Of a stretch of DNA of 39,531 nt, positions 10,631 to 31,371 are shown one piece after another. The notes under the pieces were generated by a model. That model saw only the letters and a list, made by a program, of their open reading frames with translations. It was not told the origin of the DNA and made no database searches. Source of the stretch: Treponema sp. (GTDB lineage: Bacteria > Spirochaetota > Spirochaetia > Treponematales > Treponemataceae). Every line of letters begins with the position of its first letter. Within the stretch, counting starts at the first letter, position 1. The stretch is taken from contig JAILON010000096.1 of NCBI GenBank assembly GCA_024690865.1, forward strand, positions 1 through 39,531, given 5' to 3'. The position numbers and the translations under genes were made by a program.

Positions 10631-13600
10631 TTACAGCGATGAAAGGAGCTGCTTGACCTCGGAGCTCTTGTAGTCGGGGTTGTTTCTCTGAAGGAATGAC
10701 AAGTAGTCCTTGGCCGCGTTCGTGTCCTTGAGCGTTATGCACACCTTGGCAAGCTCGAAGTACGCGTCCCAGTTCTTCTTGTCGGCCGCGATGACATCCT
10801 GGTATGTCGATTTCGCCTTGTCGTAGTTTCCTGCCGAGGCGTATGCCTTGGCGAGGTTCTCGCGGACGGTGTTGTCCTTGGGGCTTATCTTGAGCGCGCC
10901 CTGGTAGTACTTGACGGCATTGTCGTAGTCGGCCTTCTGCCTGTAGGCGTTACCCAAGTTGTTGTTGACCTCGAAGTTCCCGCTCTCAAGCGAATATGCC
11001 TTCTGCAGGAATGTCAGCGCGGAGTCCGCGTCGCCCGACTCCAGGCTGAGCGCACCGATGTTGGTCAGGGCCTTGACGTTCTTGGGATCGGCGGCCAGCA
11101 CCTCCTTGTAGAGGGCGAGCGCATTCGTCTTGCCGCCGGTCTCCTCGCACATCAGGGCATAGTTGTAGGTGATGTTAGTCTGCACCAGCTGGACCGCGTT
11201 CGACTTATTGTCATAGGCCTGCTTGGCATAGGAGAGCGCGTTGTCCTTCTTTCCCTGCGCGTACATGACTGTAGACAGGTTGTAGTAGGTGACGGGATCC
11301 TTCTTGGCGGGGTCCATGTAGGCGAGGGCCTTCTTGAAGGCCTCCTCGGCGGCGGTGTAGTTGCCGGCAGACGAGTATACCGAGCCAAGCTCCTGGTAGT
11401 TCTGGGAGGACGAGGGGTTTATGCGGATGGCCTGCTTGAACAGGTCCGCGGCCCCGTTGAAATCGTTCTGCCTGACGAGGATCCTCGCCGCGGCAAGATA
11501 CGCCCTCTCGTAGTTCGAGTCAATCTGGAAGGCCTTGCGGTAAGCGGTGAGGGCCTGCTGCGTCCTGTTCAGCTTCTCGTTGACGAATCCAAGGTTGTAC
11601 TGGGCCGAGGCGAACGAGGGGTTGTACTTGATGGCGGATGCAAAGGAGGAGCTTGCCGCCTCATACTTCTTCTGCTGGGCCTGGACACGTCCCAGCTGGT
11701 AGTAGTAGTTGGGGTTATTGGGGTCGGCGGCAATCGCCTTCTTGAGCTCCGCCTCGGCGGTCGCCCAGTTCTTGGAGTCGAACGCGTCCATCGCCTTTAT
11801 GTAGTGGGCCTCAGGGTTTGCCGCATCCTTTGAGAGAGCGTCGTTGGCATATCCCAGGGCCTGCTGCATGAGCTTCTTCTTCTGCGCAGGGTCCTGCGCG
11901 TTCTGGGCCGCATCGTATATGGCAAATCCTATCTCGCCCATCTTGTCGGCATAGAATTCCTTGTCCTCGGGGGGAAGCTTCGCCTTTTCTTTTGCGTTGG
12001 CGAAGTGCTTGAGGGCCTCGTCTATGTCGCCGGAGTTCAAGGCGGCCATGCCTTTGGCTATCTCGTCGTTCGCTTCCTTTATACGCTTGGCGGCGGCAGC
12101 GCTCTCGGCGGCCTTGCGGGCCTCCTCTTCCTTGCGTTTCTTCTCCGCCTCCGCCCTCTGCCTGGCTTCGGCCTCCTGACGCTGTTTCTCTTCGGCGGCG
12201 GCGGCCTTGCGGGCTTCCTCCGCCTCCTTCTGGGCGCGGACAAGCTCGTTCATCGCCTGCACGTTCTTGCGGTTCTCCTCGGTCTGCTTGGCAAGCTGGT
12301 CCTTGAGGGCCTGCGTGCTCTTGGCGTTCTCGGCGTTCTGCCGTGCAAGCTCGTCCCTGAGGGCCTGGTTGCTCTTCGCGCTCTCAGCCGTCTGCTTGGC
12401 AAGCTCGTCCTTGAGGGCCTGGTTGGTCTTGACGCTCTCAGCCGTCTGCCTTGCAAGCTCGTCCCGGAGCGCCTGGTTGGTCTTGACGCTTTCCTCCGTC
12501 TGGCGGGCAAGCTCATCCTTGAGGGCCTGTGAATTCTTGGCGTTCTCCTCCGTCTGGCGGGCAAGCTGTTCTTTCAGGGCCTCTATCGTCGCCTGCATCG
12601 CGTCGGACAGGGCAGAAGCCTCCCCTCCTGCGGTTCCGCCCGATGCCGGGTGGAAGTTCCCCTGTGCGTCATAATAGCCGCCGGCTCCGGCCATGCCGGC
12701 TGTCCCAGCCGCCGGATGGAAATTTCCCTGAGCATCATAATAACCGCCGGCTCCGGCCATCCCGCGGGAAGCCCCCGCAGGTGTCACACCTGGCTCATTC
12801 GCAGAGTGGAACTTTCCGGTGGAATCATAATATCCCACGCTTCCGTCAGGGCCGACTGCGGCGGGGTGGTAGTTTCCCTGCGCGTCATAGAAGCCCGCGG
12901 TCCCGCCAATGCCTCCGTAGCCACCTGCCCCGGCCATTCCGGCAGCCCCAGTGGCAGGGACGGCGGTGACGCCCGGCTCGCTCGCCGAATGGAATTTGCC
13001 GTCGGATCCGTAATAGCCCACGCTTCCGTCAGGGCCGACCGTCGCGGGGTGATAGTTCCCCTGAGCATCGTAGAAGCCAGCAGTCCCGTTCACCCCGCCT
13101 GCCCCGGCCATGCCGGCGGCACCTGTGGCGGGGACGGCGGTGACGCCAGGCTCGCTCGCCGAATGGAACTTGCCGTCGGATCCGTAGTAGCCGACGTTTC
13201 CGTCAGGGCCTACCGTCGCGGGGTGGTAGTTTCCCTGCGCATCGTAGAAGCCAGCAGTCCCGTTCACCCCGCCTGCCCCGGCCATTCCGGCAGCCCCGGT
13301 GGCAGGGACGGCGGTGACGCCCGGCTCGCTCGCCGAATGGAACTTGCCGTCGGATCCGTAGTATCCCACGCTTCCGTCAGGGCCGACTGCGGCGGGGTGA
13401 TAGTTTCCCTGCGCATCGTAGAAGCCCGCGGTCCCGCCAATGCCTCCGTAGCCACCTGCCCCGGCAAGCCGGTACAAGGAGGCCAGCTGATCGAATAAGG
13501 AGGAAACTGCCGCATCATGCGGGTCTTTTATCATAAGGTCATTCAGGAGGGAAAGAGCTTTATCGTACATGCCCGCATCTATATACCTCCGGACCAAATC

Positions 13601-24556: not shown

Positions 24557-24710
24557 TCCATTCTGCTGGCACCAGACAGTCCATCTTGGTGATACCAGAT
24601 AGCCCATCCTGCTGGCACCAGATAGTCCATCTTGGTGATACCAGATAGCCCATCCTGCTGGCACCAGATAGTCCATCTCGGTGACACCAGACAGCCCATT
24701 CTGATGCCTG
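24557..24710. repeat. 23-bp tandem array, six full units and one partial, alternating two forms
   Basis: Units start at 24557, 24580, 24603, 24626, 24649 and 24672; a partial seventh begins at 24695. Consensus YCCATYYTGSTGRYACCAG with AYAG at the end. Odd units contain the dyad CTGG-CA-CCAG and the inner even ones TGGT-GAT-ACCA, so units 2-5 form a 46-bp higher-order repeat (2 equals 4, 3 equals 5 exactly). There are no spacers, so it is not CRISPR. It fills the 400-bp gap between divergent leuS and the phosphatase gene; nothing else but promoters was seen there. Confidence 0.92.
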
Positions 24711-28847: not shown

Positions 28848-30239
28848 ATGGAAAACTACCGCATAGAACACGACTCCATGGGAGAGGTCAAGGTTCCCGC
28901 CGACAAGCTCTGGGGTGCGCAGACTGAGCGCAGCCACGAGAACTTCCTTATCGGCGTCGGGATCGAGACCATGCCCCGCGAGATTACAAAGGCCTTCGGC
29001 TACCTCAAGAAGGCAGCCGCACAGGCGAACAACGAGCTGAAGAGCGAGAAGATGACGGCAGAAAAGCTCAAGTGCATTAGCCAGGCCTGCGACGAGGTCA
29101 TCTCCGGTGCCCTGAACGACAACTTCCCGCTCGTCGTCTGGCAGACGGGAAGCGGCACGCAGAGCAACATGAACACGAACGAGGTCATCGCGAACCGCGC
29201 CAACCAGATTGCGGGCAGCAAGCTCTGCCATCCGAACGATGACGTGAACATGAGCCAGTCGAGCAACGACACCTTCCCGACCGCCCTGCACATCGCGGCG
29301 ACGGTGGAGATTGAGGACAAGCTCTTCCCGGCGATTGACCTGCTCGTGAACACTTTCAAAAAGCTTGAGAAGGAGAACGAGGGCATCGTCAAGTCCGGCC
29401 GTACCCACCTGCAGGACGCGGTTCCGATTTCCTTCACACAGGAGATTTCCGGCTGGAGAAGCTCTCTGGAGCGGGACAAGGAGATGATTTCATCCTCCCT
29501 CCCCTACCTGAAGCAGCTTGCCCTCGGTGGAACTGCCGTCGGAACGGGACTGAATGCGCCCAAGGGCTTTGACACCCTCGTCGCGAAGAAGGTCTCTGAG
29601 CTGACCGGCAAGGACTTCATCACCGCGCCCAACAAGTTCCATGCGCTTTCCAGCAAGGACGAAGTCGCCTTCGCCCACGGTGGGCTCAAGGCACTCGCCG
29701 CCGACCTGATGAAGATTGCCAACGACGTGCGCTGGCTGGCATCCGGTCCCCGCGACGGTCTCGGCGAGATCCACATCCCCGAGAACGAGCCCGGCTCGTC
29801 GATTATGCCCGGAAAGGTGAATCCGACCCAGTGCGAGGCCATGACGATGGTCGCCGTGCAGGTAATGGGAAACGATGTGGCCGTCGGTGTCGCCGCGTCA
29901 CAGGGCAACTTCGAGCTGAACGTCTTCATGCCCGTGATTGCCTACAACTTCCTGCAGTCGGTCCGCCTGCTCGCGGAGGTCATGGTCAGCTTCAACAACA
30001 ACTGCGCCGTCGGCATCACCGCAAACAAGGAGAAGATGCACTTCAACCTGCACAACTCCCTGATGCTCGTGACCGCCCTCAATCCCTACATCGGCTATGA
30101 GAATGCGGCGAAGACTTCCCACCTGGCATACGAGAAGAACATCTCGCTCAAGGAGGCCTGCGTGAGCTTGGGCTTCCTGACGGCAGAGAAGTTCGACGAA
30201 GTTTTCCATCCGGAAGAGATGGCCGGCGTAAAGAAGTAA
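28848..30239 (+). CDS. fumC: Class II fumarase
   Basis: Class II fumarate hydratase, iron-free, interconverts malate and fumarate. The 463 residues include KLWGAQTERS, GSGTQSNMNTNEVIANRA, SQSSNDTFPTALH, the THLQDAVP loop and the superfamily signature GSSIMPGKVNPTQCEAM from about residue 315. All the residues expected for substrate binding in these loops are present. It lies 18 bases after mdh with no strong ribosome site of its own, so the two are probably co-transcribed. With the fumarate reductase operon after it, the working direction should be malate to fumarate. Confidence 0.97.
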   Translation: MENYRIEHDSMGEVKVPADKLWGAQTERSHENFLIGVGIETMPREITKAFGYLKKAAAQANNELKSEKMTAEKLKCISQACDEVISGALNDNFPLVVWQTGSGTQSNMNTNEVIANRANQIAGSKLCHPNDDVNMSQSSNDTFPTALHIAATVEIEDKLFPAIDLLVNTFKKLEKENEGIVKSGRTHLQDAVPISFTQEISGWRSSLERDKEMISSSLPYLKQLALGGTAVGTGLNAPKGFDTLVAKKVSELTGKDFITAPNKFHALSSKDEVAFAHGGLKALAADLMKIANDVRWLASGPRDGLGEIHIPENEPGSSIMPGKVNPTQCEAMTMVAVQVMGNDVAVGVAASQGNFELNVFMPVIAYNFLQSVRLLAEVMVSFNNNCAVGITANKEKMHFNLHNSLMLVTALNPYIGYENAAKTSHLAYEKNISLKEACVSLGFLTAEKFDEVFHPEEMAGVKK

Positions 30240-30250
30240 AAACACCTGCT

Positions 30251-30280
30251 GCCGGGTCTTATGGCTGAGATCCGGTGGTG
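30251..30280 (+). other. GC-rich hairpin after fumC
   Basis: CCGGGTCT and AGATCCGG, flanked by CACC and GGTG, can form a bulged stem just after the fumC stop codon. There is no T run close behind, so it is either a weak terminator or an RNA-stabilising end. It could separate mdh-fumC from the hdr operon. Confidence 0.4.
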
Positions 30281-30344
30281 ACTCAGGCTTCCTGTTTTGG
30301 GAGAATAGCGGGAAGTTTGTTTTAATGAGACTATTTGTATTGCG

Positions 30345-30547
30345 AGTTCTCAGTCACTCTTCGGGTGTCTGAGAATTCGTTGGCCAACATAAAAACGCTC
30401 GTCGCGTTTTTACGTGGCCGTTGCGATGTCCGATGTCGCCCGCAGGGCGTCTTCGGACTCGTTAAGTTCGCGGAAACTCCGACGGAGATTCCGCGAACTT
30501 GTGGCTGTGTATTATGTCCTGTACGTAATGCACAAGTATTACATACA
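30345..30547 (+). other. Leader with five consecutive stem-loops before the hdr-flx-frd operon
   Basis: Five inverted repeats follow one another with only short gaps. (1) 30345-30357 with 30365-30377. (2) GGCCA and AAAAACGC (30382-30398) with GCGTTTTT and TGGCC (30404-30419). (3) 30428-30441 with 30445-30458. (4) 30466-30480 with 30484-30498, 14 of 15 paired. (5) TGTACGTAAT (30520-30529) with ATTACATACA (30538-30547), next to the ribosome site of hdrB. Stems 1, 3 and 4 hold internal T-T or A-A mismatches. No known riboswitch was recognised, and no confident promoter was found in this 319-base gap. Confidence 0.7.
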
Positions 30548-30558
30548 AGGATGTAAAG

Positions 30559-31371
30559 ATGGACAATAACATCACTTACTCCTACTTCCCCGGCTGTACG
30601 CTCAAGAACAAGGCGAAAGACCTTGATATGTACGCGCGCAAGTCGGCGGAGGCACTGGGGTTTACTCTCGAGGAGATTCCTGACTGGCAGTGCTGCGGAG
30701 GGACCTATCCTCTTGCGAAGGACGAGATTGCGACCAAGCTCTCGTCCGTACGTGCTCTTGCCTATGCAAAATCCTCGGGGCATGATTTGGTCACGCTCTG
30801 CTCCGCCTGCTACAATGTCTTGAAGCAGGTCAATGACGATATGCAGAATGATGAGAATGTCATCCTCAAGGTGAACAACTACCTGAAGCACGATGACATT
30901 GAATACCACGGCGAGACGAAGATCGTCCACTACCTTGAGGCTCTCCGCGATGTCGTGGGCTGGGACAAGCTCAAGCAGGCCGTGAAGAATCCCTTCAAAG
31001 GAAAGAAAATCGGCGCATACTACGGCTGCCTCCTCCTGCGCCCCGGCAAGGTCCTTCAGTTCGACGATCCGGAGAATCCTCAGATTATCGAGGACTTCAT
31101 CAAGGCAATCGGCGGAACCCCTGTCATCTACGCCCAGAGGAACGAGTGCTGCGGAGCATACGCCGGATTCGAGGACGAGTCCATCCCGCAGAAAAGGGCC
31201 GCCGCCATACTTTCCAACGCGGAGGACATGGGCGCGGACTTCCTCGTCACAAGCTGCCCCCTCTGCCGCTACAACCTCATCAAGAACAAGGGCGACAGCA
31301 AGCTGGACGTAATCTACTTTACGGAGCTTCTTGCCGAGGCCCTTGGGGTGAAGGAGGCATGCAATGCTTAA
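30559..31371 (+). CDS. hdrB: Heterodisulfide reductase subunit B-like (two CCG domains)
   Basis: HdrB-type proteins carry two CCG domains, each binding a non-cubane 4Fe-4S cluster at which a disulfide is split in methanogens. Both five-Cys sets are complete: C13, C45-C46, C81, C84 and C157, C197-C198, C233, C236 (for example WQCCGGTYP and NECCGAYAGF). At 270 residues it is shorter than methanogen HdrB by the usual margin for bacterial homologues. AAGGATG precedes the ATG. It heads the nine-gene operon and overlaps hdrC by eight bases. In this setting it should pass electrons towards fumarate reductase or reduce an unknown disulfide. Confidence 0.93.
   Translation: MDNNITYSYFPGCTLKNKAKDLDMYARKSAEALGFTLEEIPDWQCCGGTYPLAKDEIATKLSSVRALAYAKSSGHDLVTLCSACYNVLKQVNDDMQNDENVILKVNNYLKHDDIEYHGETKIVHYLEALRDVVGWDKLKQAVKNPFKGKKIGAYYGCLLLRPGKVLQFDDPENPQIIEDFIKAIGGTPVIYAQRNECCGAYAGFEDESIPQKRAAAILSNAEDMGADFLVTSCPLCRYNLIKNKGDSKLDVIYFTELLAEALGVKEACNA

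Follow-up and report, generated by a model that had tools for sequence, protein, structure and literature searches.

The region between fumC and hdrB in this Treponema genome (G000) is, in our judgement, probably composite: a bistable leader that would turn translation of the hdr-flx operon on and off adjoins hdrB, and twin-hairpin elements appear to have been dropped in upstream of it. Five stem-loops are formed by positions 30342-30550 of the window, by which we mean the whole 39,531-nucleotide stretch analysed, and each of the five inverted repeats of the preliminary description is found both in the sequence and in the minimum free energy (MFE) fold. The predicted energy of 30330-30565 is -116.7 kcal/mol, compared to -67.7 +/- 4.3 kcal/mol for shuffled sequences (z -11.4; 0 of 200 shuffles as low), which bears out the claim of more structure than chance gives. 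The internal T-T and A-A mismatches had also been described correctly; the arms are indeed repeats, but extend to 17-18 bp once the mismatch is crossed, rather than the 10 to 15 bp given. What does not stand is the treatment of the five stems as a single object, as they fall into two, stems 1-4 on the one hand and stem 5 with its surroundings on the other. Seven hairpin clusters are present in an 882 kb sample of G000 and none in shuffled sequence, and the window stretch and a second locus, C110, are the strongest two. The genome was compared with 200 genomes of the genus (congeners are denoted by other G-numbers), and its relatives are rumen and gut Treponema; most of the sequences are metagenome-assembled genomes, and G000 itself has an estimated completeness of 91% and contamination of 7.7%. 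The features of the region are as follows.

28848-30239, plus strand: fumC, the fumarase C gene, upstream (Pfam Lyase_1, 1.6e-106, and FumaraseC_C).
30244-30287, plus strand: element A, a hairpin with the invariant loop CTTATGGCTGAG (CTTTTGGCTGAG in G037) and ACTCAGG downstream; the stem sequence differs between species.
30284-30325, plus strand: element B, a hairpin with the conserved loop TTTT(A/G)GGAGAAT (TTTTRGGAGAAT) and a varying stem, from alignments of the upstream region.
30339-30501, no strand assigned: lineage-specific insert with stems 1-4 (the stems at 30342-30501), boundaries good to about +/- 4 nt.
30342-30380, minus strand: stem 1, hairpin Y of unit 2, CGAATTC...GAACTCG; 12 bp, T.T, 5 bp, loop TTC.
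30382-30419, minus strand: stem 2, hairpin X of unit 2, GGCCACGTAAAAACGC...GCGTTTTTATGTTGGCC, followed by AA; an outer GGCC-type stem plus 9 bp, loop of 5.
30423-30462, minus strand: stem 3, hairpin Y of unit 1, CGAGTCCGA...TCGGACATCG; one G-C pair between two T.T mismatches, loop GCA.
30463-30501, minus strand: stem 4, hairpin X of unit 1, followed by AA; 13 bp, A.A, 4 bp, loop GAC.
30501-30570, plus strand: conserved leader block of about 70 nt (model R1), running over the hdrB start.
30506-30534, plus strand: stem 5, or state C, a predicted 12-bp hairpin UGUGUAUUAUGU:ACGUAAUGCACA that frees the Shine-Dalgarno (SD) sequence from the antiSD helix.
30512-30556, plus strand: alternative state P1+D, in which UAUGUCCU and its neighbours are predicted to pair with the SD stretch AAGGAUGUA; cap GUAAUGC-ACAA-GUAUUAC.
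30547-30551, plus strand: SD sequence AAGGA of hdrB, from the sequence.
30559-31371, plus strand: hdrB (CCG domain; Pfam CCG, 6.3e-19), first gene of the downstream cluster, with its ATG at 30559.

The cluster continues on the plus strand beyond hdrB with genes for a small Fe4S4 protein, an HdrA-like flavoprotein, FlpD/MvhD and further Fe-S proteins, and then an NAD/FAD subunit, an FrdB-like Fe-S protein and an FrdA-like flavoprotein that is cut off by the end of the window. This complement (HdrB, HdrA-like, FlpD/MvhD, NAD/FAD, Fe-S and FrdA-like genes) supports the hdr-flx-frd operon context proposed earlier. No sigma-70-like promoter was seen between fumC and hdrB, so a joint fumC-hdrB transcript is possible and the hdrB leader may sit inside such a message.

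The leader block is present in 17 of the 200 Treponema genomes (E about 1e-16 or better), in one copy each and always upstream of hdrB; an 18th match to the R1 model, in G032, is weak. These comprise 10 distinct sequences, in which two incompatible folds, P1+D and C, are kept. In P1 the conserved UAUGUCCU pairs with the SD-bearing AGGAUGUA, and D is a 7-bp hairpin, GUAAURC-ACAA-GUAUUAC, on top of P1. Across the 10 distinct sequences 97.8% of the P1+D cells are paired, a proportion above most shuffled and slid controls, and compensatory G-C/A-U exchanges occur at columns 26-51 and 30-47. Only 2 pairs (5 cells) show such two-sided change, among sequences that are related, and the antiSD:SD pairs themselves are invariant. 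In state C, UGUGUAUUAUGU pairs with the strand that is used by D, and 99.2% of the main-helix cells are paired in the same 10 sequences; the variation here consists of one-sided wobble changes only, and the conservation is partly a by-product because the 3' strand of C is common to D. When the blocks are folded alone the MFE structure is P1+D in eight of nine and C in one, with the two states within about 9 kcal/mol of each other, and within 3 kcal/mol in five of the nine species. With its native 3' sequence the G000 block favors C (pairing probability 0.68-0.85, versus 0.14-0.32 for P1), and beside the insert alone the probability of C is 0.99. A switch needs two states of similar energy, and the models place P1+D and C near one another; their values should not be read more finely than this.

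Stem 5 is therefore not the single fixed stem that was first described, although it does adjoin the hdrB ribosome site; it is one of two mutually exclusive folds. As judged from the models, it is part of an older, conserved leader, one of whose folds is predicted to hide the hdrB SD. The proposal of a structured RNA element accordingly holds for stem 5 and its surroundings, which are conserved in 17 species, covary as had been asked of related treponemes, and sequester the SD in one predicted fold. We infer that the pairing controls translation in the following way. In the OFF state UAUGUCCU would pair with the SD-containing AGGAUGUA, stacked on the 7-bp ACAA-loop hairpin, and translation would be off; in the ON state the 5' strand UGUGUAUUAUGU would capture the 5' strand of the ACAA-loop hairpin in a 12-bp stem, and the SD would be freed. 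The balance would be shifted by some signal, which could be a ligand, a protein, a small RNA or the upstream element A or B.

The leader thus modelled looks like an undescribed gene switch. It is like translational riboswitches and other SD-sequestering leaders in having two exclusive folds, an antiSD that hides the SD and a position 5' of the first gene of an operon; its antiSD strand pairs with the SD in a helix backed by compensatory change, and the competing SD-freeing fold is conserved in relatives, with both states populated in the models. It differs from widespread riboswitches in being confined to one clade and one gene, and an Rfam search for known aptamer classes gave no match at the gathering threshold, with just two chance-level matches up to E 10. 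The sequence AUACAAGGAUGU over the SD resembles the E. coli CsrA consensus. A CsrA-repressed leader was considered and rejected, as no csrA gene was found in G000 in a search that detected its controls, a result that is not final for a genome that is 91% complete. No description of the leader or of the twin hairpins in Treponema was found in the open-access literature, whose coverage is partial, such that this speaks weakly for novelty.

Two further hairpins with conserved loops, elements A and B, lie at 30244-30325, upstream of the range first described; they covary and are clade-specific. The element A pattern is present as a single copy in 5 of the 200 genomes, in all cases at hdrB, with a sixth, diverged copy in G037. 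Its loop and the downstream ACTCAGG could form a 5-bp pseudoknot, CTGAG:CTCAG, as read from the sequence. A dispersed riboswitch was considered for element A and dismissed, given its single copy and its restriction to hdrB. Element B was not seen in the upstream alignments of the clade of G058, G087, G117, G170 and G187. As ideas only, the CAGG of the element A tail could instead pair with the 3' end of element B, and the AGGAG of element B could compete for the UCCU of the leader block.

A different history is seen with stems 1-4. After a search for HdrB in 146 congeners, the regions 5' of the gene were compared. Stems 1-4 are absent from G069, G129 and G012, in which an AT-rich spacer leads straight into the final block ahead of hdrB. 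G069, the sister of G000 in the fumC tree (support 98/98), is without the insert, and the HdrB of G129 is 98% identical, yet G129 lacks it too. One related unit is present at the same spot in G194, where the stem 4 homologue differs little in sequence, one T-A pair having changed to C-G in a compensatory manner, and is neighboured by a hairpin that is unrelated in sequence; G037 has unrelated hairpins at the same hdrB site. Reading stems 1-4 as an insert takes three gains or losses on the fumC tree. There is no clear target-site duplication; the insert is flanked by TTGT in G000, a feature that G194 does not share. By these comparisons stems 1-4 are a separate, apparently recent layer upstream of the leader, and they would be tolerated as a spacer there because the pairing of each hairpin is internal to it.

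On the minus strand, the order within the insert is stem 4, AA, stem 3, CAAC, stem 2, AA, stem 1, which amounts to two units with Y ends of the CGAR...CTCG type. The general architecture is a hairpin X, a short linker (usually AA, TA or TTA) and a hairpin Y with CGAG...CTCG ends; the X hairpins have no sequence consensus. Hairpins were surveyed in samples of 882 kb (G000), 803 kb (G194) and 400 kb (G044). Outside the window the X-linker-Y arrangement is found in the G000 sample at C110 (as an array), C16, C98, C48 and C18, and in G194 at C11, at C1 (the site equivalent to C110) and at hdrB; the distant congener G044 has one CGAG...CTCG case. Strong hairpins side by side hardly ever occur in shuffled sequence; in G000 there are 9, non-family pairs included, versus 0 in its shuffles. 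A covariance model built from short Y hairpins and their flanks matched C18 independently (E 0.004), and gave further matches at C54 and C57 that are model matches alone. Because the genome-wide search with this model pre-filtered its candidates and passed over known units that local search recovers, its yield is a lower bound. The Y hairpins of the window match the same model (R2) weakly on the minus strand (stem 1 at 13.7 bits, stem 3 at 9.6 bits). Two Y-model matches in G194 (L399) look coding and were set aside, as was an early pattern match, TTGGCCAACGAG in C126, which is coding sequence and not an element. An integron attC core (RYYYAAC) was also rejected, as it agrees with one linker (ACTTAAC) and not with the others.

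At C110 (L153 10809-11270) we note at least six hairpins of the CGAG...CTCG type after an SDR dehydrogenase gene, the stop codon of which is inside the first hairpin, and shorter versions of this array in G194, G069, G129 and G037. The twin hairpin is kept at this site in five species with differing Y sequences, and in four of the five, hairpin X is formed between the final codons of the gene and a copy of them that follows the synonymous differences in those codons. Such a pattern can arise through either selection for structure or templated mutation.

The palindromes of stems 1-4 have only self matches below E 1 in the genome, and the earlier suggestion that they might recur elsewhere fails at the level of sequence; a search of this kind would have missed any recurrence because it is the architecture and linkers that recur, not the sequence. 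A nest of inserted palindromes, also suggested earlier, fits stems 1-4 in these respects and in the presence or absence of the insert among close species, but not in sequence recurrence. The sequences suggest that stems 1-4 are two copies of a twin-hairpin element of rumen Treponema, recently inserted and perhaps mobile or neutral, that came to lie upstream of the leader in this lineage.

Other repeats were encountered. In the window an intergenic tandem array of the 22-bp palindromic unit TAAAGCTCGTGCTTTAAGCTCA is at 206-286, long tandem repeats with periods of 54 and 174 bp (multiples of three) are within a 1335-aa open reading frame at 12265-13436, and a 46-bp tandem repeat at 24558-24703 (CACCAGATAG.CCATC...) is like repeats beside an IS200-like gene at C121 of G000 (L308). 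Elsewhere in G000, C20 (L144 1053-1087) and C17 (L252 4156-4196) share nearly the same palindrome, CGAACATAACATTTGG-N3-CCAAATGTTATGTTCG. G044 has a different dispersed pair, a terminator-like hairpin beside AAAGTTTGCgttGCAAACTTT, in four copies per 400 kb (L376 17550 and 18459; L378 4096; L385 7869).

Several other explanations can be weighed against this composite. All five stems could be one device for mRNA stability or processing, protecting an abundant hdr message or separating it from fumC, and the very stable, tandem and intercistronic hairpins would suit this, as would the twin hairpins elsewhere that also adjoin genes, one of them spanning a stop codon. We regard it as unlikely, because close relatives with the same operon lack stems 1-4 whereas 17 species keep stem 5. 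Tandem intrinsic terminators are alike in having GC-rich hairpins that adjoin genes, but no T-run follows stems 1-4, and the sole terminator-like pattern is weak and overlaps stem 4. It is similarly improbable that a regulator binds the conserved block as DNA, in the role of operator or promoter region, with the palindromes as protein half-sites. The near-dyad TGTGTATTATGT...ACGTAATGCACA, the strong conservation and the position 5' of the operon are as expected of an operator; however, the variation obeys RNA wobble rules (U-G for U-A) in a manner that breaks a DNA dyad, UCCU is an exact antiSD, the hairpin is preserved by G-C to A-U exchanges, and the region is without a recognizable sigma-70-like promoter.

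For the hairpin arms themselves, neutral template switching at mutational hotspots, generating quasipalindromes with neither an element nor a function, deserves somewhat more weight, though we still consider it a minority prospect. The arms are different from locus to locus, at C110 one of them copies the end of the neighboring gene in four species, and G037 gained other hairpins at the corresponding hdrB site, but the linker and the CGAG...CTCG ends recur at distant loci, and stem 4 is homologous between G000 and G194. Mobilization by a REP-associated tyrosine transposase, which would make stems 1-4 REP-type elements, seems very improbable. Like REP/BIME and tagged palindromic repeats (PMC3733652), the twin hairpins are short extragenic palindromes that come in pairs or arrays and vary in presence between relatives, and the genome has two Y1 transposase genes. 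However, tagged REPs are defined by a conserved stem sequence and an unpaired GTAG/CGTC tag (PMC3733652), whereas the twin hairpins have few units per genome, their stem sequence is not conserved between loci, and neither tag is found in the unit sequences. The genome search revealed no many-copy conserved palindrome, those of the window being without a sequence copy, and no Y1 transposase gene in the genome is flanked by such palindromes; the two Y1 genes are near-identical IS200-like copies with short hairpins of their own that are unlike the insert.

Under the composite reading, it is possible, and we propose it tentatively, that this is a new bistable RNA controlling an electron-bifurcating Hdr-Flx/fumarate reductase operon, in rumen Treponema, accompanied by an undescribed class of dispersed twin hairpins that keep their architecture and short linker signature as almost all of the sequence turns over. 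The twin hairpins would then reveal a class of repeat that is missed by similarity searches, since what persists is structure and a few terminal letters only. Should the leader act in the proposed way, it would provide a testable control point for hydrogen and electron disposal, through fumarate reduction with Hdr-Flx, in abundant rumen spirochaetes whose gene control is little known.
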